A DNA stretch of 21,039 nt from a virus: positions 1 through 21,039 of the IMG/VR virus record IMGVR_UViG_3300037493_001627; one strand, written 5' to 3'. Both the position numbers and the translations under genes were made by a program. Numbering within the stretch: the first letter of the stretch is position 1; the number at the start of each line of letters is the position of its first letter. The notes below the pieces were generated by a model. That model was not told the origin of the DNA and made no database searches. It worked only from the letters and a program-made list of their open reading frames with translations. Positions 1,057-20,484 of this stretch are shown here, in pieces.

Positions 1057-2076
1057 TTAAAGTGTTACATTACCTAAAGCTAGTTCATATGGTAGTTTAT
1101 ATTCTTTGTTTTCATAGTGATATTTAATTTTATCTTCTATGTCTTCAAAGTCAGCTAACCATATTTCTAAAGTTTCTTTGCTTACCTGGTAAGGATACAC
1201 TTGGTTATACTTGTCAATTACAATAAATGTAATTACAATGTTCCACTCAGCTGCGTCTGCTAATCCTTTAATAAAATTAGTCCAGGCAAGCTTGTGATAA
1301 ATTGCCGCTTGAATCCAATATTTATAATAACTTACAGACTCTGGAAAAGAAGCAATATCTTTACCTGTTGTCTTTAAGTCATTGATAAACAATGTCTTAG
1401 TGTCATAATCCATCACAACATTATCTAAGATACCCTTATAACCAAATGGTAAATGATCCTGATTAATACTAATCATATGCTCACTAAATGTTTTTATGTG
1501 AACATCACTTGGAGATTTATCCAATTGTAATAGGGCTCTTACTGCTTGATTAGACTTTAATTCAATCAGAGACTCTTTACAATTTGCAAGAGTTAATGAA
1601 TCAACTACTGTCTTACCAAGACTTTCTTTTAGAAAATTAAAGTAGGATTTGTTTTCTTCTGTGAGAACTTTATCTAATCTTTGCTGATCTGTTTTAAGAG
1701 ATTGATATAGATTTGCTGTAAGTAATTCTGAGAGTATTTCTTGAGAGTATAAGTCCAAAGATAATGTATCATTTCCAATTGTGCAATGATATTTGAAAAT
1801 AGTATCAATAATTTTTCTTTGACTATCTGTAGGAAATTTACTAGGCATGCTAATAAATTCTTTGTCATAGTGATCTGGCTCAAATAAAAGACAGTGAAGG
1901 ACACGCCCTGCTACCAGGTGCGCGTCCGTACTGTCCTCTCTTTGGTTGAGCACATAATGACTGTAAAACATTCTAGGTGAGAACAATAGCTTATTAATGC
2001 TACTGTAGCTAAACCAAAATGGTTTCTTATAAAATAATTCTAGTTCATCAGAACCAGTCAATGTCGGTAGACTCAT
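1057..2076 (-). CDS. PD-(D/E)XK nuclease of the RecE/Cas4-like type (exodeoxyribonuclease VIII-like)
   Basis: A 339-residue nuclease with the core motifs of the RecB/RecE-like PD-(D/E)XK superfamily. The N-terminus (FSYSSINKLLFSPRMFYSHY, residues 22-41) is the usual opening helix of phage DUF3799/PDDEXK-like exonucleases. AGRVLHCLLF (56-65) supplies the conserved histidine (H61), GILDNVV (215-221) the metal-binding aspartate (D218), INDLKTT (231-237) the DxK motif (D233, K235), and QAAIY (256-260) the QxxxY motif. Such enzymes resect double-stranded DNA ends to give single strands for an annealase or recombinase, which fits the Sak4-type and SSB-like genes encoded at 8.4-9.8 kb. Its start overlaps the end of the acidic 442-aa gene by 29 bp; no alternative Met lies before residue 36, so the overlap seems real. 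The catalytic fold is well supported; exo- versus endonuclease activity is inferred. Confidence 0.85.
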   Translation of the reverse strand: MSLPTLTGSDELELFYKKPFWFSYSSINKLLFSPRMFYSHYVLNQREDSTDAHLVAGRVLHCLLFEPDHYDKEFISMPSKFPTDSQRKIIDTIFKYHCTIGNDTLSLDLYSQEILSELLTANLYQSLKTDQQRLDKVLTEENKSYFNFLKESLGKTVVDSLTLANCKESLIELKSNQAVRALLQLDKSPSDVHIKTFSEHMISINQDHLPFGYKGILDNVVMDYDTKTLFINDLKTTGKDIASFPESVSYYKYWIQAAIYHKLAWTNFIKGLADAAEWNIVITFIVIDKYNQVYPYQVSKETLEIWLADFEDIEDKIKYHYENKEYKLPYELALGNVTL

Positions 2077-3376
2077 TTGTTTCTATTTGATGGTTATTTG
2101 ATAAAAGTTCTGTTTTTAGTGTAACTTCTATGTTGTCATTATCTACACCATAAAGATCATGAGCAAGCTCTTCCTCAGTTATAGGATGCATCTCAAGTGA
2201 TTCTTCAATCTCATCAACTATTTCTTCCATAGCTTCATTAAAAGCAGCATCTTCTTCTAGATCAGATACTCTTTCTTCTTCTTCAGATTCAATTTCTCTT
2301 TCTGGAAAAATATTAAACTCAGCTACTGAAGCAACTTCTTTAGAATCTGCTTTATATTCTATCATACCAGTATAAGAATCATTGATTGCTATTTGTACTT
2401 CTGGTGTAGGAACAAGTTGATTTACATTGAATGTAGTACTATGACCAATATTTCTAATGAACCACTCTGCTCTCTCTTGAAGTAGAACATGAGTCCAATC
2501 TTTAGTAAGCAAACCAAGAGTCATTAGTCTTTTAGCTACTTTATCAGGATCTAACCAACTAATTTCTTTTACTGCTAGATTAAAATAACTAACCATAGAC
2601 TTAAAATTCACATGATTTCTAGTATGGCAGTCTCCAATTTTATAAGAATAATTCTCTAGAAGAAGCAATAGATACAAAGCACTGTCTATATAGTTAGAGT
2701 TTGCCATAATCTCCATTGCCATGATATGATTATCCTGGTCAGAACTTTCAAACATCTTAACCAACTGGTTGTAAACTTCAGGTGTAATAGTAACTGCATC
2801 TTCACCATTGATCATAGCAAGTAATTCTGACTCATCAAAGATTGGCTTGTTCTGAATGCTATCAAGCACATCTTTATACTCTTCTTCAACAAAATGAACC
2901 GCACTAGAATAAGCATCTGTTACTTTATAACCTTTATGCTGCATATCATTCTTTGTACTATATTCCATGTATATTACTTCTGGATTACATGCCGCAACTG
3001 CAGTTTCATATTTATCAATATAATACTGGTCAAAGTCTAAATCAGTCTTTAAATAATCTACATATTTAGTAACTTCTTCAGTATTAGTATTATGTAACCA
3101 ACGGCCACATGTAATTTTATTTATAGTAGCTTTACCAGAGATAATAACATTAGCTCTCTCAGCATCTCTAACTATTTTTACTCCAAGATTTAATGCTAAA
3201 TCTTTAAGTTTAACTCTAGGTATATTAACACCCGGCATCAAGAATATACTATCTCCTTGTGCAGGGATATATCCTTTACTTACTGTATAGATATCACTCT
3301 TAGTATTAGGTATACCATACAATAATTCTACATCTAATGAATCACCACTTCTGTTACAAATTACAATTTGTTCCAT
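2048..3376 (-). CDS. Large acidic protein carrying the S-x-D-x-[DE]-N helical motif
   Basis: A 442-residue protein with no family I recognise. Residues 1-110 look like a mixed alpha/beta domain (strands around IVICNR, IFLMPGV, KIVRDA, VIISGK). Residues 199-230 contain a helical segment with MFESSDQDNH followed by an asparagine ten residues on. The same pattern occurs in the 136-aa protein at 5750-6160 and the 137-aa protein at 15280-15693. Residues about 205-315 are helical with a leucine run at 236-240. Residues 365-395 are extremely acidic (ESEEEERVSDLEED and more), and the chain ends in STDIDWF, like an interaction tail. It lies 40 bp downstream of the AAA+ gene, separated by a hairpin. 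Role unknown; a partner or adaptor of the AAA+/VWA pair is my inference. Confidence 0.8.
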   Translation of the reverse strand: MEQIVICNRSGDSLDVELLYGIPNTKSDIYTVSKGYIPAQGDSIFLMPGVNIPRVKLKDLALNLGVKIVRDAERANVIISGKATINKITCGRWLHNTNTEEVTKYVDYLKTDLDFDQYYIDKYETAVAACNPEVIYMEYSTKNDMQHKGYKVTDAYSSAVHFVEEEYKDVLDSIQNKPIFDESELLAMINGEDAVTITPEVYNQLVKMFESSDQDNHIMAMEIMANSNYIDSALYLLLLLENYSYKIGDCHTRNHVNFKSMVSYFNLAVKEISWLDPDKVAKRLMTLGLLTKDWTHVLLQERAEWFIRNIGHSTTFNVNQLVPTPEVQIAINDSYTGMIEYKADSKEVASVAEFNIFPEREIESEEEERVSDLEEDAAFNEAMEEIVDEIEESLEMHPITEEELAHDLYGVDNDNIEVTLKTELLSNNHQIETNESTDIDWF

Positions 3377-3389
3377 AATATAAAAATAT

Positions 3390-3409
3390 AGGGGGCTGTT
3401 ACACCCCCT
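3390..3409 (-). terminator. G5/C5 hairpin followed by a U-rich tract
   Basis: Minus-strand arms AGGGGG and CCCCCT (3409-3404 with 3395-3390) enclose an 8-nt loop and are followed by ATATTTTTATATT up to the next start codon. It lies six bases after the stop of the AAA+ gene and 13 bp before the start of the 442-aa gene. It looks like a weak intrinsic terminator or attenuator, or a stabilising 3' end; the U tract is interrupted, so it may be only partly effective. Confidence 0.6.
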
Positions 3410-3415
3410 GGTTAA

Positions 3416-4585
3416 TTACTGAATTGCCATTTTTACTACTGCAGTATCTGCCATCAAAGCAGAGAACTTCACTTTGTTACCATTTACAATCTCCTTGACC
3501 ATATAATATCTCAAGTCATTTGTAAAGCCATCAAACTCAGTAGTAACTTTAGCTAGTCTGTCAATCATAGCTTTAGGAACTGAACCTTTTTCAGCTACAG
3601 TAAGTGCATAGTTAATTACACGAGTTGCAATTACACTGGCCAAATCTGCACGGAAGTCATCTCCTTCACCAACTGAACCTAACAAAGCACCTTTTACATA
3701 TGCTTCATCTTTAGTAAGCAAATCCTCCGGGGAGATCATCTTGTCAAGCTTGTTATTGATAAACATAGTAAACATGCTAGAGAAATCTGTACCAACAGAA
3801 CCCTCACCAATCATCTGAACAAGAGGCAACTCATCTTCAAACTTTGGAATAGAACTAATACCATTAAAGAATGTAGTAATAGATCTTGGATTAACACGTT
3901 GAGTTACAAGCTCTGGGTGCATCAACATGAAGTTAATACATCTGCCATCAATAGATGCTTTCTCAGCCCACTTAGCCCATACATTGACATCATATTTCAT
4001 CTCAACAGAGATAAATCTTGTTTTCTGAGCTACGTCAAGAGTAGTTACATTATAGTCACCATTGTCTGGATTAGTTGTTAAGATAACATGCCAGTTCTTA
4101 GGAAGCTTCCATGATATGTATTCTTGACGGTCAAGAACTTCCATACATGCTTGCATAAATCTTTGATCAGCACGAGTATAGTCATCCAAGATTAGGAAAC
4201 CACCTTCACCTTTACCCTGAATCCATTCAGGAGCAGCATGAGACATTCTCTTATCTGCTACAGTATAACCTGCTTTCATTGCAGCCGGTACTTGAGCTTC
4301 AGTAATCCATCTTTGTTTACCTTCTTGATTCTTTACTAAGAATTCTTTAATAGGAAAACCTACAAGGTCACCTAATTCCTCAATCTGAGATAGATTAAGT
4401 TTTACTACATCCATACCAAGTTCTTTACCTAACTGCAAGATTGCAGAAGTCTTACCAAGACCAGCATCACCCTCAATATTGATAGCCACAGGAATTTTTC
4501 CTTCAGACTGAATATGTTGATTGTTCTTAACCATGTGACGGATAAAACCTTTTAACTCATCTACGTTTAATTGTACTGTATTCAT
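3416..4585 (-). CDS. MoxR-like AAA+ ATPase (AAA_5 type)
   Basis: A 389-residue AAA+ ATPase. Walker A is GDAGLGKTS (residues 39-47, K45), Walker B is LILDDY (131-136), sensor 1 is the asparagine of ILTTNPDNGDYNV (168-180), and the following DVAQKTRF (184-191) supplies the arginine expected at the subunit interface. The Walker B/sensor layout and the TTNPDNGDY loop are those of MoxR/dynein-like AAA_5 proteins, which form ring ATPases that remodel partner proteins and are typically encoded beside a von Willebrand A protein. Exactly that partner lies upstream, only 11 bp away (4597-5778), so the two probably form one machine. The C-terminal 180 residues are mostly helical and not recognisable. 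The fold is certain from motifs; the substrate is unknown. Confidence 0.9.
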   Translation of the reverse strand: MNTVQLNVDELKGFIRHMVKNNQHIQSEGKIPVAINIEGDAGLGKTSAILQLGKELGMDVVKLNLSQIEELGDLVGFPIKEFLVKNQEGKQRWITEAQVPAAMKAGYTVADKRMSHAAPEWIQGKGEGGFLILDDYTRADQRFMQACMEVLDRQEYISWKLPKNWHVILTTNPDNGDYNVTTLDVAQKTRFISVEMKYDVNVWAKWAEKASIDGRCINFMLMHPELVTQRVNPRSITTFFNGISSIPKFEDELPLVQMIGEGSVGTDFSSMFTMFINNKLDKMISPEDLLTKDEAYVKGALLGSVGEGDDFRADLASVIATRVINYALTVAEKGSVPKAMIDRLAKVTTEFDGFTNDLRYYMVKEIVNGNKVKFSALMADTAVVKMAIQ

Positions 4586-4596
4586 AATATTTGTTT

Positions 4597-5778
4597 TTAT
4601 AATTCTAACTTAATTACTTGGCCTGGTAAATCTGTATTCATGCTTGATCTTTCTGACAAAATCCATAGAACTCTGTTCTTTGGTTTTACAGATGTATAAC
4701 ACTCCCCGTCAGTAAAATATACCAGGCTTGTATATTTTCCAAGGTTTGCATTGTAATAGTCTAGGACGGGATCAAATTCAGTCCCACCTCTTCCTTGTAC
4801 TTTGAGATCATTCTTGCCTTTGTAAGGTTCAATAGACCGGATACTTGTATCACATTGTACTATAGTAATATCAACTCCTGCTTTATGTATGTGATGAATC
4901 TCATTCATAAACTCAGTAAGTTCAGTATCACTTACAGATCCAGAAGTGTCAATAGCCAATAGCATGTGTTGTCTCATCTTGATCTTAAGACCAGGATTAT
5001 CTTCATACCTATGGTTTTCTTTTCTTCTAATCTTTTTAGTAAAGATTTTAGTACTTGTACCAGTGAATCTTCTGAGATATCCTCTCCAATCAAATTTAGC
5101 TTTAGTAACTTCATCTAGAACAATCAGTCCTTCAATCTCTCCTGGAACATTACCACGTTTCTTAATGGTCTGTTCTTTAGCATCTTTTAGGATCTTCTGT
5201 ACTTGTTTCTCAATGAGTTTCTTCTCAGCATCAGACATGTCTTCAAACTCTTCCCATGTAGAATGGTCTGGTATGTCTCCATTTGCAATGTTATCAAGTA
5301 GTTTATCCATTTCTTGATCACCACTTGTACCATTCTTATCCTTCTCATCTTGAAGGCGGAGAAGCTGGTCATAGTAATATCTACAACCAGCCTTTCTATC
5401 TAGTTGAATGTCTGTATAGTCATCAATGTTGATACCTCCTTCTGGCAGCCAAGAGGCTTCAATATACTGATTAATTTCCATATCCATGGCAACATTTGCA
5501 AGTTTCTTGTTGCTAAAAGAACCAAAACTTACAAGGTGACCAAATGCAATATGGAGTAATTCATGTTTCAGTAAGCCTGTCTTATGATCATCACTTAGAC
5601 TATTCCAGAATTCTTCATTGATAGCCAATTGATAATTAATATTCTGCTTACTTACACCTGCAGTAGGGAGATCTTTCCTCCATACTTTATTCAACATAAT
5701 GAGAAAGAACCCATAATAGGGCTCTTTCAACATTAGTTCTTTACTGATTTTACTTAGACTCTGTGCTTTGTCCATCAT
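4597..5778 (-). CDS. HExxH metallopeptidase-like protein with C-terminal von Willebrand A domain (DUF2201 type)
   Basis: A 393-residue protein with two domains. The N-terminal part (residues 7-130) has the putative metallopeptidase layout of this family: KEPYYGFFLIML, then KHELLHIAFGHL with a zinc-type HELLH (72-76), then AMDMEINQYI (97-106), which usually provides a further ligand. A charged linker (about 140-225) follows. The C-terminal VWA domain has a complete MIDAS: LLAIDTSGSVS (273-283; D277, S279, S281), the threonine of GGTEF (331-335) and YFTDGE (354-359). Members of this family are encoded with MoxR-like AAA+ ATPases in bacteria, and here the ATPase follows after 11 bp. The start overlaps the 136-aa gene by 29 bp; the first Met is preferred because the family's conserved N-terminal helix begins there. 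Whether it truly cleaves protein is not known. Confidence 0.88.
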   Translation of the reverse strand: MMDKAQSLSKISKELMLKEPYYGFFLIMLNKVWRKDLPTAGVSKQNINYQLAINEEFWNSLSDDHKTGLLKHELLHIAFGHLVSFGSFSNKKLANVAMDMEINQYIEASWLPEGGINIDDYTDIQLDRKAGCRYYYDQLLRLQDEKDKNGTSGDQEMDKLLDNIANGDIPDHSTWEEFEDMSDAEKKLIEKQVQKILKDAKEQTIKKRGNVPGEIEGLIVLDEVTKAKFDWRGYLRRFTGTSTKIFTKKIRRKENHRYEDNPGLKIKMRQHMLLAIDTSGSVSDTELTEFMNEIHHIHKAGVDITIVQCDTSIRSIEPYKGKNDLKVQGRGGTEFDPVLDYYNANLGKYTSLVYFTDGECYTSVKPKNRVLWILSERSSMNTDLPGQVIKLEL

Positions 5779-6160
5779 CTTTAATTTTTACATCAATGCT
5801 TATTTGATTCATATCATAACCTATCTGACCCAACATACTTGTTAGATCTCTGACAAAGTTTTCTATAAATAGCTCAACCAAAAGCTTATCGGCTTTGTAT
5901 GTAGTTAATAATCCTAGTACTCTTGCACTAGATAATGATCCTATCTGTTCAGATATAACTGGTATAAGTATCTTATAAGATTTTGGTGCTTGTTTACCCC
6001 AAGCAATAGAATCTTTTTTAGAATACTTATATAATACAATTAACTCCGGTACAGTTAAACCACTGTTCTCTATTGCCTGGAAAGCAATAACATGATTTTC
6101 TGCATCACTAGAGCTAAACATAGAAATCAGATTGTTTAATTCAGCTTTACTTAGTTTCAT
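5750..6160 (-). CDS. Small helical protein (136 aa) with the S-x-D-x-[DE]-N motif
   Basis: No named family recognised. The N-terminus contains MFSSSDAENH (residues 14-23) inside an amphipathic helix with an asparagine ten residues after the first one. This matches the pattern in the 442-aa protein (2048-3376) and the 137-aa protein (15280-15693). The middle (residues 40-110) is predicted helical and moderately hydrophobic without a transmembrane segment; the C-terminus is polar. Its ATG forms a TAATG overlap with the stop of the DUF6915 gene, and its 3' end overlaps the VWA gene by 29 bp, so it belongs to the AAA+/VWA translation unit. An adaptor or substrate of that machine is plausible, but this is inferred only from position and shared motif. 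Confidence 0.8.
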   Translation of the reverse strand: MKLSKAELNNLISMFSSSDAENHVIAFQAIENSGLTVPELIVLYKYSKKDSIAWGKQAPKSYKILIPVISEQIGSLSSARVLGLLTTYKADKLLVELFIENFVRDLTSMLGQIGYDMNQISIDVKIKDDGQSTESK

Positions 6161-6501
6161 TAGTCTTCAATTTTAAGTGTCTTAATCATCCATTCTGTGG
6201 GTTTATTAATATTATCAACCCATTCTTTTGCACTTGGGATATATCCATTGCAGTCTTCTTTGACATGTTGTTCTCCAACATATCTTATATACACTCTTTT
6301 TCCTACAGAATTGACAAAGTAAGTACCAAAAGCTTTTTCACATTCAAAAATACCCTCACTGTGATGACGGAACATTCTGTGTTTACTATGGCCTATCCAA
6401 GCTTTGGTAGCATCAAACCATTCATGAATATGCATATATTCTAAAGGTTCTCCTCCCCACTTTTTAGCGGAAGATCTTGCATGTTCATATGGATGTGACA
6501 T
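6160..6501 (-). CDS. DUF6915 family protein
   Basis: The 113-residue protein shows the recognisable DUF6915 pattern: HPYEHARSSAKKWGG at the N-terminus, IHEWFDATKAW, then the histidine-rich HRMFRHHSEGIFECEKAFG, and RYVGEQHVKEDCNGYIPS near the C-terminus. The many conserved histidines (for example H46-H47 and the H of GEQHV) and acidic residues suggest a metal- or nucleotide-binding site, but no activity is known to me. It is joined by one-base TAATG overlaps to the DUF6878 gene upstream and the 136-aa helical gene downstream, so it is tightly co-translated with them. Family assignment is from memory of the pattern. Confidence 0.8.
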   Translation of the reverse strand: MSHPYEHARSSAKKWGGEPLEYMHIHEWFDATKAWIGHSKHRMFRHHSEGIFECEKAFGTYFVNSVGKRVYIRYVGEQHVKEDCNGYIPSAKEWVDNINKPTEWMIKTLKIED

Positions 6502-6922: not shown

Positions 6923-7348
6923 CTATTTAATTTTGTAAAACCTGCCAAGGATATTGGCATTTAAATATTCTTCTTTTTCTAGCACCTCTCTTGTAAATTG
7001 GTACTTGGTCTCATAATATGTTAGTTCTGTTTTAGAAAAACAGATTCTTACCATGAACCTTTTAATGGGAACACCATTCTTATGTGCATCTTGTAGCACT
7101 TTATTGCTACTAAAGTAGTTCTGATAGTTAGTTTTTACCTGAATAGTGTATTTCCTTGCACGTTTGTCTTCCATATTAGCAAGAGCTTTTACTCCAAGCT
7201 TTTTCTTAGTTGTAGAATAAAAATTCTTTTTACCAATATATCTAACAGCTTTACCATCTATAATAGCTTCCATTTCATATATGAACCCAATGGCTCCTTC
7301 TGGAATCTTGCTATCATTAAATACTTCTCCCTTGTGTAACCAACTCAT
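6923..7348 (-). CDS. SegE-like GIY-YIG endonuclease
   Basis: A 141-residue protein close in layout to the GIY-YIG domain of T4 SegE-like nucleases. GFIYEM (21-26) and RYIGKKNFYS (36-45) are the two GIY-YIG strands. TNYQNYFSSNKVLQDAHKNG (73-92) matches the family segment around W/YxxYxGS, IKRFMVRICFSKTELTYYETKYQF (95-118) carries the catalytic glutamate (E113), and YLNANILGRF (128-137) the C-terminal asparagine region. There is no extra DNA-binding domain, so it is the single-domain form, either a homing endonuclease or a resident phage nuclease. It overlaps the primase gene by 4 bp (ATGA) and is followed by DUF6878 after 2 bp, so it is embedded in the operon rather than inserted within a gene. 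Confidence 0.8.
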   Translation of the reverse strand: MSWLHKGEVFNDSKIPEGAIGFIYEMEAIIDGKAVRYIGKKNFYSTTKKKLGVKALANMEDKRARKYTIQVKTNYQNYFSSNKVLQDAHKNGVPIKRFMVRICFSKTELTYYETKYQFTREVLEKEEYLNANILGRFYKIK

Positions 7349-8322
7349 ACTGTTTGTTTTAGTAAAGATAATAACTTATCTCTAACAGCTTCAATACCGT
7401 AATCTTTTACAGAATCTGATAGATCTTTAGACATATCAAGATTAATAGACTTAATACTATACTTATCTGTATATCTCTGAGCAGCCTTAATACCGGGCTC
7501 ATCATTATCAAACAGTACAAGTATCTTAGAATATTTTTCTTGAAGTTTACCTATAACAGATTCTCCAATCATAGTATTCTCACTGTCTGGAGCAATACAT
7601 TCTATATTACCAATACTAAGCTTCTTAAAACTCATAAGATCTTTAAGAGATGATACAATCAGCAAATACTTACAATCATACTGTAGTTGATCCATACCTT
7701 GAGTATAGTTCTGGATCTTAATAAACTTTTTCTCAGGAACCTTTGGCATATAAATTTTATAGAGCTCACCATCATTACGGAAATAACCATAAACATAGGG
7801 TCTAGAAAACTTATAGCTTGTGATAGAACCATCTGGTTCAGTCTTAGACATTGTAAAGAACTCTAGTGGAACTACATTATACTGACTTAAGATACCAGAA
7901 CCAATTTTAAATTGTGTCCAGTACTTTTGGTCTAGTGTATTCCAGTGTCTCATTTCAAAATCTACAACCTTGAACTTATCATAGAACTGTATAGGACCTC
8001 TTTCTGCAGGTGCATTATGTTTTAAATACTCCTGATAATCGGTTAATATCCGGTTAACTGCCTTAAATCTGGCATCATAGTTAAATAAAGACTTAACAAG
8101 TTCTATTTGGTCACCTTGAAATCCTGAAGAAAAATCTTTGAACTTATATCTACCACCATCTTGATAGACAAACATGCTAGGCACTTTGTCTTTAACATTA
8201 AATGCAGATAGCATCTTAATGTTTTGTCCGGTAAGTTTTTCTTTTAAGTTCAAATAATACTCAAATACCCATTCTCTGGGAACTTCCTCTAAATCAGATA
8301 TAATATTCCTAGTTGAAATCAT
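7345..8322 (-). CDS. DnaG-like DNA primase with Toprim domain, lacking zinc finger and first Toprim glutamate
   Basis: A 325-residue primase-like protein. The N-terminal segment (DKVPSMFVYQDG then YKFKDFSSGFQGDQIELV, residues 45-76) resembles the end of the CHC2-type domain and start of the catalytic core, but no cysteine or histidine cluster for zinc binding is present. The Toprim domain has LLIVSSLKDLMSF (220-232), then LVLFDNDEPGIKAA (268-281) with the D-x-D pair D272/D274, and DLSDSVKDYG (300-309). The usual catalytic glutamate of Toprim motif I is replaced by serine (S224). It is the first gene after the hairpin at 8339-8363 and is followed by the GIY-YIG gene through an ATGA overlap. 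It should synthesise primers with the DnaB-type helicase encoded at 10.4-11.4 kb; whether the altered Toprim is active is unclear. Confidence 0.8.
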   Translation of the reverse strand: MISTRNIISDLEEVPREWVFEYYLNLKEKLTGQNIKMLSAFNVKDKVPSMFVYQDGGRYKFKDFSSGFQGDQIELVKSLFNYDARFKAVNRILTDYQEYLKHNAPAERGPIQFYDKFKVVDFEMRHWNTLDQKYWTQFKIGSGILSQYNVVPLEFFTMSKTEPDGSITSYKFSRPYVYGYFRNDGELYKIYMPKVPEKKFIKIQNYTQGMDQLQYDCKYLLIVSSLKDLMSFKKLSIGNIECIAPDSENTMIGESVIGKLQEKYSKILVLFDNDEPGIKAAQRYTDKYSIKSINLDMSKDLSDSVKDYGIEAVRDKLLSLLKQTV

Positions 8323-15126: not shown

Positions 15127-15280
15127 TTGTTAATTGTTTAGCAATCTGTTTAGCTAAGTAAGCACTGCATTTATATTTTGCTTTTACATATTCTTCAACT
15201 GCTTTTGGAATCATTATGCTAATGTCCTTATTCTTCAGTTTCATTTCTTGAATGATATGTTCTTTTATTGCATTTGCCAT
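15113..15280 (-). CDS. Small basic protein (55 aa), too short for routine gene calls
   Basis: The frame begins MANAIKEHIIQEM and continues with MIPKAVEEYVKAKYKCSAYL, ending in a basic helix. It fills the gap between the 137-aa gene and the 85-aa gene exactly: its ATG overlaps the upstream stop as TAATG and its stop overlaps the next start by 14 bp. The composition (lysine-rich, amphipathic helices, no membrane segment) fits a small soluble protein, possibly nucleic-acid or protein binding. Function unknown. Confidence 0.6.
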   Translation of the reverse strand: MANAIKEHIIQEMKLKNKDISIMIPKAVEEYVKAKYKCSAYLAKQIAKQLTNDGK

Positions 15281-15693
15281 TACTTAGCTGCCATTGTTTG
15301 CATGAATATTTCATGATTGAGCACTTCATGTGCATAGTTTTTAGCAATACTCCAGTATGCTGCATTTACTTTACTATACTCACCATGTTCTTGTAATCTT
15401 AGGTCTCTAAAGTTCTTAATTGATAAAGTAACCATATGAAGATTGTCTTTGTCTTCTGACTCAAGCATCCTAATCATGTTCTTTATCTCAGTGTCATTTA
15501 TATAACCCATTCTCTTTAGCAACTGTAGTTCTGCCATATATACAAATGGCCGGAACATACCCGCTTTACTACCCTTATGGTACATATACCATAGATAATG
15601 TAGATTCTGATCTACACCATCTGTAATGTTATAATGCTCTTCTGCAATCTTAGCAGAGATTTCCTCCATTTCTTTTCTAATATCTATTTCCAT
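15280..15693 (-). CDS. Helical protein (137 aa) with the S-x-D-x-[DE]-N motif, coupled to the radical SAM gene
   Basis: The start is placed at the ATG at 15693, one base after the stop of the radical SAM gene. A longer open frame reaches 15900 but its extra 69 residues lie wholly over the conserved C-terminus of the radical SAM gene and are a shadow. The protein begins MEIDIRKEMEEIS, is predicted almost entirely helical, and at residues 76-85 carries MLESEDKDNL followed by an asparagine ten residues after the motif Asn. This is the third copy of the pattern found in the proteins at 2048-3376 and 5750-6160, here in the C-terminal half. No enzymatic motif. A protein-protein interaction role is inferred. 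Confidence 0.75.
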   Translation of the reverse strand: MEIDIRKEMEEISAKIAEEHYNITDGVDQNLHYLWYMYHKGSKAGMFRPFVYMAELQLLKRMGYINDTEIKNMIRMLESEDKDNLHMVTLSIKNFRDLRLQEHGEYSKVNAAYWSIAKNYAHEVLNHEIFMQTMAAK

Positions 15694-15694
15694 C

Positions 15695-16564
15695 TTAAAA
15701 TATGTACCTAATTGTATTCCACGGAAGTATTCTATTATGTAAATCTGTGAACTGTTGTATGTAATCGGCCTTCCTTCTATGCTCATATCTGACATTGCTG
15801 CCACCATATTGAGAAATCTTGGCTTCTTGTATCTTGGGTGTCCAAAGAAATTCTTCACCCATGAGTTTGTGTTCCACATTGTACCAGTGTTTTGCTTCAT
15901 TATGTGTTAAAAAGATTATCTCAGCTTTAACTGAAGTATTATTCCAACGACCTACTTCTGCCATACTTCTAATAGTATTAAACAATCCCTCATAATGTTG
16001 TAACCAGTTATCATGAACAATAACAGGACTGAAGTTTAAATGAACTTCATAACCAGCATCTCTAAAATAACGTACAGCACGGAGTCTATCATATATACCT
16101 GCAGTATTTGGCTCTAGTATTTTCTGCAACTCCATTGGCATCATACTAAATCTAATTCTGATTTTACCCTCAGGATTAAATTCAAATAGATCTTCATTTA
16201 CACATTTAGTAGCAAATGAACCCATAGCAAGTGGATGATCTCTAAAGAACTTAAAGATGGTCTTCCAATCATGATACTTAGCATGTAAAGCAAAGTCCTC
16301 ATTACAAGAGATATCATATGTAATGTACTCTCCTGTTTGATTGGGTTTGTCCACAGTAGCAAAGAATGCATGTGAATTTATTTCTGTCAGGATGTCCATG
16401 GTATTTGTTGCCACAGTTAATCCTTCCGGTTTATGTCTCTTCATATAACAGTAAGAACAGTTATACAAACAACCATGACCAAAAGAAGGAGCAATAAAAT
16501 CAGTGCTCCTCCCACTTGGTCTAATAATCATACTTTTTCTTACAACCTCTTCTACAACACTCAT
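15695..16564 (-). CDS. Radical SAM protein of the spore photoproduct lyase (SPL) family
   Basis: A 289-residue protein. FGHGCLYNCSYCYMKRH (28-44) holds the radical SAM CxxxCxxC cluster motif (C32, C36, C39) that binds [4Fe-4S]. The body follows the SPL pattern: SFATKC (118-123 region), IRIRFSMMPMELQ, RLRAVRYFRDAGYEVHLNFSP with the barrel strand, and a C-terminal segment LWTPKIQEAK then YGGSNVRYEH matching the end of SPL proteins. C87 (YDISCNEDF) lies 48 residues after the last cluster cysteine, close to the 43-44 residue spacing of the hydrogen-donor cysteine in SplB. SPL directly reverses the thymine dimer spore photoproduct; a phage homologue may repair UV damage or modify another substrate. 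The 46 bp upstream hold no gene. Confidence 0.85.
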   Translation of the reverse strand: MSVVEEVVRKSMIIRPSGRSTDFIAPSFGHGCLYNCSYCYMKRHKPEGLTVATNTMDILTEINSHAFFATVDKPNQTGEYITYDISCNEDFALHAKYHDWKTIFKFFRDHPLAMGSFATKCVNEDLFEFNPEGKIRIRFSMMPMELQKILEPNTAGIYDRLRAVRYFRDAGYEVHLNFSPVIVHDNWLQHYEGLFNTIRSMAEVGRWNNTSVKAEIIFLTHNEAKHWYNVEHKLMGEEFLWTPKIQEAKISQYGGSNVRYEHRRKADYIQQFTDLHNRILPWNTIRYIF

Positions 16565-19973: not shown

Positions 19974-20255
19974 TTAAATTAGTTCTAAATCAGCCTCTAG
20001 GACTTCTTCTTTTTTTTCTTGAGCTTCATAAATCCTCATGTCTAATGGAATGAATCTATCCGCATCATAGTACTCATATGGAAAACAATCAGCAGACATC
20101 TGTACTTCTTTAAGTAGTACACCATACTTACCATCTTGTAATCCCATTTTTACTACTTTAGTTACAGTATATACTTCACCTTCTTTAATCCACTGTTCTA
20201 CAGGAACTTTGGAAGGCTTTTTACTACTGTCAATGCATATCATCTTCATTTGCAA
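19974..20255 (-). CDS. Conserved small protein (93 aa or slightly shorter)
   Basis: The sequence MKMICIDSSKKPSKVPVEQW followed by EGEVYTVTKVVKM and CFPYEYYDADRFIPLD is a pattern I have the impression of seeing in many Bacteroidota genomes and phages: an initial ICID strand, a GExYTVT strand and an FPYEYYxxxRFxP end, probably a small SH3-like barrel. Function unknown. Three Met codons (20255, 20249, 20243) can serve as start; the second or third fits the family better and shortens the overlap with the ClpS-like gene (26 bp to 14-20 bp). The C-terminus is acidic. Confidence 0.75.
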   Translation of the reverse strand: MQMKMICIDSSKKPSKVPVEQWIKEGEVYTVTKVVKMGLQDGKYGVLLKEVQMSADCFPYEYYDADRFIPLDMRIYEAQEKKEEVLEADLELI

Positions 20256-20484
20256 CCATTTTAACTTTTAAATCTACTCCCTCAAGAAACTCTCTCATTG
20301 TTTCAATCTTTGCCCAACATCCGTGTTTTATTGTACATTGACCAACTAAATCAACTATTAATGCACATTGTTCTGCTTGTTGTGGCTCATGACCACAGTA
20401 CTTAATTAAACAAGCAATAACATAGGCAAAGCTATGAACATCATCATTATACAATATAAGTTTATGATCTTCAGGTAATTCCAT
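20230..20484 (-). CDS. clpS: ClpS-like adaptor of the ClpAP protease
   Basis: The 84-residue protein matches the ClpS core: LILYNDDVHSFAYVI (9-23) with the NDD substrate-pocket motif (N13, D14, D15), then ACLIKYCGHEPQQAEQC and ALIVDLVGQCTIKHG (41-55), and a final helix and strand (MREFLEGVDLKVKM). ClpS binds N-terminal hydrophobic residues (N-degrons) and delivers proteins to ClpA. The position that in ClpS is normally a histidine contacting the substrate amino group (H66 in E. coli, within VHxxG) is aspartate here (D45). The N-terminal tail that engages ClpA is short (about 8 residues). A phage copy may redirect host Clp proteolysis; this is inference. Confidence 0.82.
   Translation of the reverse strand: MELPEDHKLILYNDDVHSFAYVIACLIKYCGHEPQQAEQCALIVDLVGQCTIKHGCWAKIETMREFLEGVDLKVKMVANEDDMH

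Follow-up and report, generated by a model that had tools for sequence, protein, structure and literature searches.

N442, a candidate dedicated third component of a MoxR-like ATPase and metallopeptidase-VWA pair in an uncultured crAss-like phage lineage

Pairs of vWA and MoxR proteins capture a peptide at the MIDAS site of the vWA partner and, powered by ATP, remodel the protein so caught (PMC7159879). The phage locus studied here raises the question of whether such a pair has a dedicated partner. The DNA analysed, hereafter the window, is the 21,039-base IMG/VR virus record IMGVR_UViG_3300037493_001627, which carries no structural genes. In a preliminary description, two proteins sharing an unusual helical motif were taken to be the third component, as adaptors or substrates, of an AAA+/VWA machine. 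We asked which of these proteins belong with the pair, how far the association extends among phages, and what the module might do.

The locus, its operon and its two enzymes

The four genes of the locus all lie on the minus strand. M136 (5750..6160) encodes an all-helical protein of 136 aa, VWA (4597..5778) a protein with an N-terminal zincin-like metallopeptidase domain and a C-terminal VWA domain with a MIDAS, and AAA+ (3416..4585) a MoxR/midasin-like ATPase. N442 (2048..3376) encodes an acidic protein of 442 aa in which an alpha/beta N-terminal half is followed by a helical domain homologous to M136 and a disordered acidic tail ending in DIDWF. These ORFs and their coordinates are as first described, as is the AAA+/VWA gap of exactly 11 bp. 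The order of transcription is DUF6915, M136, VWA, AAA+, N442 and PD-(D/E)XK exonuclease, with gaps or overlaps of <40 bases; two overlaps measure 29 bp, one between M136 and VWA and the other between N442 and the exonuclease gene that follows it. The DUF6915 protein directly upstream of M136 (6160..6501, minus strand; Pfam 7e-40) is present in nearly all close relatives. The exonuclease that follows N442 in the same operon (1057..2076, minus strand) matches Pfam PDDEXK_1 (4e-6) and PHROG 412 (1e-20), and the DNA primase of this operon (7345..8322, minus strand) matches Toprim_2 (1e-5) and PHROG 12622 (4e-23).

In both the window and L159, the operon reads DnaB, a conserved protein, a P-loop ATPase, an SSB-like protein, primase, nuclease/resolvase and exonuclease, the module lying between the last two. 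The 'SSB-like' label is drawn from position and C-terminus, this protein having no family match. The operon of the window, whose products include an AAA_24 protein, is colinear with that of L159 and broadly colinear with those of gut Crassvirales, resembling cr60_1 and cr55_1. Judged by this gene content, the earlier placement of the module in a replication block is correct for the window and the crAss-like lineage. The resolvase slot of the window holds a SegE-type GIY-YIG nuclease (6923-7348, minus strand; Pfam 1e-17), that of L159 a RusA-looking protein (4541-4948), and that of gut Crassvirales an annotated Holliday junction resolvase; a non-orthologous replacement is possible. The minus strand of the window also encodes a ClpS-like protein, i.e. 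a phage-encoded protein resembling N-end-rule adaptors (20230-20484; Pfam ClpS 1e-14), and a radical SAM protein of the spore photoproduct lyase family (15695-16564; TIGR03886 E 1e-87, under the equivalog cut-off).

The VWA protein matches Pfam DUF2201_N (7e-17) followed by the VWA-like DUF2201 (2e-16), both above cut-off, and belongs to PHROG 1314. Its peptidase motif is HExxHxxxxH and its MIDAS motif consists of DxSxS, GGT and D; HExxHxxxxH, DxSxS and GGT are intact in 303/303 full-length family members. The AAA+ protein matches the PHROG 1297 ATPase (7e-32), and among 18 aligned members Pfam AAA_5 was found in 12 and AAA_3 in eight. Walker A, Walker B (LDD) and the sensor N are near-invariant across the family, with G39, G42, G44, K45, T46, L131, L133, D134, D135, N172, R190 and R234 each conserved at >=97%. 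Since the motifs are kept in nearly all members, both active sites appear to be under selection. When the AAA+ alignment profile was searched against the PDB, the closest solved relative was Midasin (1e-14). Midasin/Rea1 likewise pairs AAA+ with a MIDAS domain; however, it is a single giant eukaryotic polypeptide without a peptidase domain and acts in ribosome assembly. No fusions of AAA+ or VWA to N442 were present among the family proteins checked.

Several features of these genes in relatives deserve mention. The VWA family is labelled 'HNH endonuclease' in PHROG 1314 and in many phage records, a name that its domains do not fit. VWA or AAA+ genes split by insertion were seen in L230, L233, L235, L238, L239, L280, L281 and L108, and in the sibling contig G003 VWA is separated from AAA+ by a GIY-YIG-looking ORF (L176:18649-19386). 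The module genes look like recurrent homing-element targets, and we infer that insertion into the AAA+/VWA ORFs (L230, L239, L281) is a common fate of conserved phage genes. In four relatives (L017-L019 and L021), the VWA gene measures ~1302 bases versus 1179, apparently through an in-frame insertion of 41 residues.

The shared helical motif and the N442 family

The similarity between M136 and the C-terminal helical domain of N442, which underlay the preliminary description, is beyond chance. It was detected by blastp (E = 4e-7), by a Smith-Waterman score of 83 against a maximum of 61 among 2000 shuffles, and by profile-profile comparison (probability 97.5%, E about 3e-11). An AlphaFold2 model of M136 (pLDDT 86.7) has seven helices, and a Foldseek search of the PDB with it gave no significant match. 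A third carrier, overlooked in the preliminary description, was found by iterated HMM searching (about 1e-15). This 206-aa ORF, M206 (15280..15900, minus strand; true start probably internal), carries the first half of the motif domain and overlaps the end of the spore photoproduct lyase family gene. It lies outside the operon core, about 9 kb from the AAA+/VWA pair, and was found in the window's subclade only. The motif as a generic genome-wide repeat was considered and rejected, there being <=3 carriers per large contig.

N442 has a pI of 4.42, and its final 92 residues contain 32 D/E versus 3 K/R. Its AlphaFold2 model (pLDDT 88) consists of an alpha/beta half and a helical half, with low confidence at residues 406-440, and showed no significant match in the PDB by Foldseek. 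Good matches in BFVD were confined to four phage proteins, all uncharacterised, of which one belongs to a crAss-like virus and two belong to the same podovirus. The N-terminal half of N442 is hinted to be BRCT-like: matching PDB profiles were SMARCC1 (twice) and PARP1 at E 0.06-0.24, the top Foldseek match was the PARP1 BRCT (E about 0.1), and Pfam BRCT was detected at 0.003 in 2 of 93 family members. Profile-profile comparison with a shallow set of ligase BRCT domains was negative. Because these signals are weak and inconsistent, we do not class N442 as a BRCT protein.

The C-terminal tip of SSB reads DDDIPF or DDDLPF. Similar endings were found in 40 of 99 distinct N442-family tails versus 5 of 1267 other ORFs, a count that does not represent 40 independent events because the tails are phylogenetically related. 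The window protein ends in DIDWF and relatives in DDLPF, many tails of the family having one or the other ending, and the window tail is acidic and predicted to be disordered. N442 differs from SSB in that no match to an OB-fold SSB was seen, and the members from T4-like phages that were inspected have no SSB-like tail.

The N442 family gave no informative match in Pfam, PHROGs, NCBIfam or PADLOC. This bears on one alternative, that the locus is a phage member of the ternary conflict systems in which MoxR and vWA proteins are joined by a dedicated third protein of the VMAP, iSTAND, FtsH or beta-propeller type (Kaur et al. 2020, PMC7159879). The two share a two-gene core plus a third component. 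However, N442 is unrelated to VMAP or iSTAND as judged by PADLOC, Pfam and NCBIfam, has no recognised effector domain, and is encoded by a phage, within its replication operon. Lacking a PADLOC model and an effector domain for N442, we rejected this barely credible reading.

Association of N442 with the AAA+/VWA pair

To what extent, then, do the motif proteins accompany the pair? When viral contigs were scanned with VWA, 80 close loci were recovered, which share the gene order of the window. A further scan, for which the Moorella phage homologue headed the alignment, added 73 loci, nearly all with motif proteins beside the pair, and two more scans, one with an N442-type anchor and one with the most distant VWA type, added about 160. 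Grouping VWA at 90% identity and requiring >=2.8 kb on each side gave 65 clusters, in all of which AAA+ and N442-family genes were both present (65/65). The same was true of all 16 clusters at 70% identity (16/16), in which seven arrangements occurred: m-VWA-AAA-N-N, m-VWA-AAA-N, VWA-AAA-N, N-VWA-AAA, AAA-N-VWA, m-AAA-N-VWA and AAA-N-VWA-m. Conversely, VWA and AAA+ accompanied N442 in 66/66 N442-anchored loci with >=3.5 kb upstream. Many of these phages carry a tandem pair of N442 paralogues. The preliminary description had listed conserved co-occurrence among its checks, and absence of the motif proteins from most relatives with the pair as part of its refutation; N442 passes, having been found with the pair in every set of clusters counted. 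M136 is a looser associate: M136-type proteins were present in 44 of 50 clusters of an earlier set and are patchy among distant loci. The proposal that the motif proteins form a third component is therefore well supported for N442 at the level of genetic association, which extends over several gene orders and two lineages, and less so for M136.

The two lineages were recognised from large contigs. In the 114.9-kb sibling contig G003, terminase, portal, major head protein and DNA polymerase were identified by PHROGs, and its portal matches portals of Crassvirales and related phages. The best matches of the window DnaB are from gut Crassvirales. Based on the sibling portal, DnaB and operon order, we place the window in an uncultured crAss-like lineage. 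Of 16 large contigs, 10 contained the G003 portal; the modules of the six without it (L335, L330, L321, L350, L338, L326) are mostly rearranged. One of these, the 168-kb contig of L335, is T4-like, with a tail sheath, TerL, portal, clamp loader and clamp. As L335 is T4-like and others are crAss-like, the trio crosses phage lineages. Three module contigs (L162, L163, L165) were binned in bacterial MAGs assigned to Pseudomonadales and Campylobacteraceae and are probably mis-binned phage genomes.

This distribution also speaks to the simplest alternative, that the motif proteins are unrelated operon neighbours held together by synteny alone. Such a reading would accommodate the inconstancy of M136 and M206 and the colinearity of close relatives over the whole operon, but N442 tracks the pair in spite of changes in gene order, in T4-like as well as in crAss-like phages. 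We therefore regard synteny alone as very improbable for the motif proteins as a whole; it is largely refuted for N442 and possible for M136 and M206. Co-inheritance within a tight operon is by itself no proof of contact. Nevertheless, its inseparability from the pair in the loci tested suggests that N442 is a dedicated client or adaptor, and on these genomic grounds N442 is very probably a dedicated partner of the pair, whether as adaptor or as substrate.

The reverse does not hold, as the pair also occurs without N442 or M136. Such pairs were found in Moorella phage MTATph1, an N4-like Salmonella phage, PBS1, phiFa, AD45 and BpSp, and jumbo and Thermus phages also carry the pair without motif proteins. 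Loci of Saprospiraceae and related bacteria contain VWA, in some cases with AAA+, and neither N442 nor M136; a search of 395 genomes from the phylum to which one Saprospiraceae genome belongs, run without a positive control, likewise gave no N442. Searches of INPHARED phages by tblastn with M136, N442 and two N442 relatives returned nothing. None of six named crAss or related phages has the trio, and a module general to Crassvirales was accordingly rejected. Because none of the other phages and bacteria examined that have the pair also has N442, we consider N442 a component of one phage assemblage and not a universal partner.

Among described systems, two come closest to the pair. In the Schitoviridae, N4 gp25-like proteins of PHROG 1314/COG3864 are also encoded beside a MoxR-like COG0714 ATPase. 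However, they share about 23-28% identity with the window VWA, and the N4-like locus examined has no homologue of N442 or M136. In group 2.2 jumbo phages, a MoxR-like AAA+ gene adjoins that of a vWA protein whose N-terminal domain is a metallopeptidase (Iyer et al. 2021, PMC7824862). The part of that paper on which we draw describes no third component, whereas N442 is always present here and the crAss-like copies lie in a replication operon. The AAA+/VWA pair is thus already known, in bacteria as well as in N4-like and jumbo phages; N442, its obligate partner here, appears to be undescribed, judging from the resources searched. In the literature searched we found no client for a phage MoxR-vWA-metallopeptidase pair and nothing tying crAss-like phages to MoxR, vWA or BRCT.

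Possible roles of the module

Taken together, these analyses suggest that M136, VWA, AAA+ and N442 probably form a co-inherited module made up of a MoxR ring, a zincin-fused vWA co-chaperone and, in N442, a dedicated third component. We envisage that the MIDAS site of VWA would capture an exposed and probably acidic stretch belonging either to N442 itself or to a client that N442 binds. The ring formed by AAA+ would then spend ATP to pull on or refold the captured assembly, which the peptidase domain of VWA may also clip. The peptide captured may be the disordered acidic tail of N442; alternatively, this tail may tether N442 to SSB-binding replication proteins. M136, in effect the helical domain of N442 as a separate protein, could serve as a regulator, a competitor or a second client.

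Replication and recombination are the arena suggested by the operon and by the SSB-like tail in the crAss-like lineage, where the likely object of such a module would be the phage replication/recombination complex. Remodelling of replication complexes is a role we propose tentatively. A fuller version is possible but doubtful: the module would be an ATP-driven protease that remodels the phage's own replication/recombination nucleoprotein complexes, N442 would represent a new adaptor family whose disordered tail mimics the C-terminal tip of SSB, and the trio would have been transferred intact between the T4-like and crAss-like lineages.

On the T4-like contig, the terminase and portal genes are a few kb away from the trio, at a distance of up to about 10 kb. 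This setting is not obviously one of replication and leaves an assembly role in play. The pair would then assemble or process structural proteins during virion assembly or maturation, with N442 and M136 as assembly factors or scaffold-like clients. Such a role has been proposed for the peptidase-fused vWA/MoxR pair of jumbo phages, with the ATV tail-assembly system as a precedent (PMC7824862). However, the crAss-like module is inside a replication-recombination operon on the opposite strand, away from the capsid/tail block, and the 93 N442-family members gave one virion structural protein match and one tail protein match in PHROGs, both weak. We regard virion assembly as unlikely.

A role in host take-over or counter-defence, in which N442 and M136 would deliver a protein of the host to be unfolded or cleaved by the AAA+/VWA peptidase, is quite improbable. 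M136 diverges fast, retaining about 35% identity among the more distant loci of the close set versus about 80% for VWA/AAA+. The same phage encodes the ClpS-like adaptor, and phage ClpS has been discussed as a host-hijacking tool (PMC7824862). However, the strict retention of N442 in all lineages examined and the core replication neighbours of the module fit a core function better, and no PADLOC model matched.

If the preferred reading of a co-inherited module holds, the replication operon of a large, uncultured, environmental group of crAss-like phages gains in N442 a component not described before. Its inseparability from the pair across many lineages makes it a strong candidate for a client or adaptor and renders the role of these chaperones in phages directly testable. 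The trio suggests that a three-part machine may remodel or cut proteins during phage infection.
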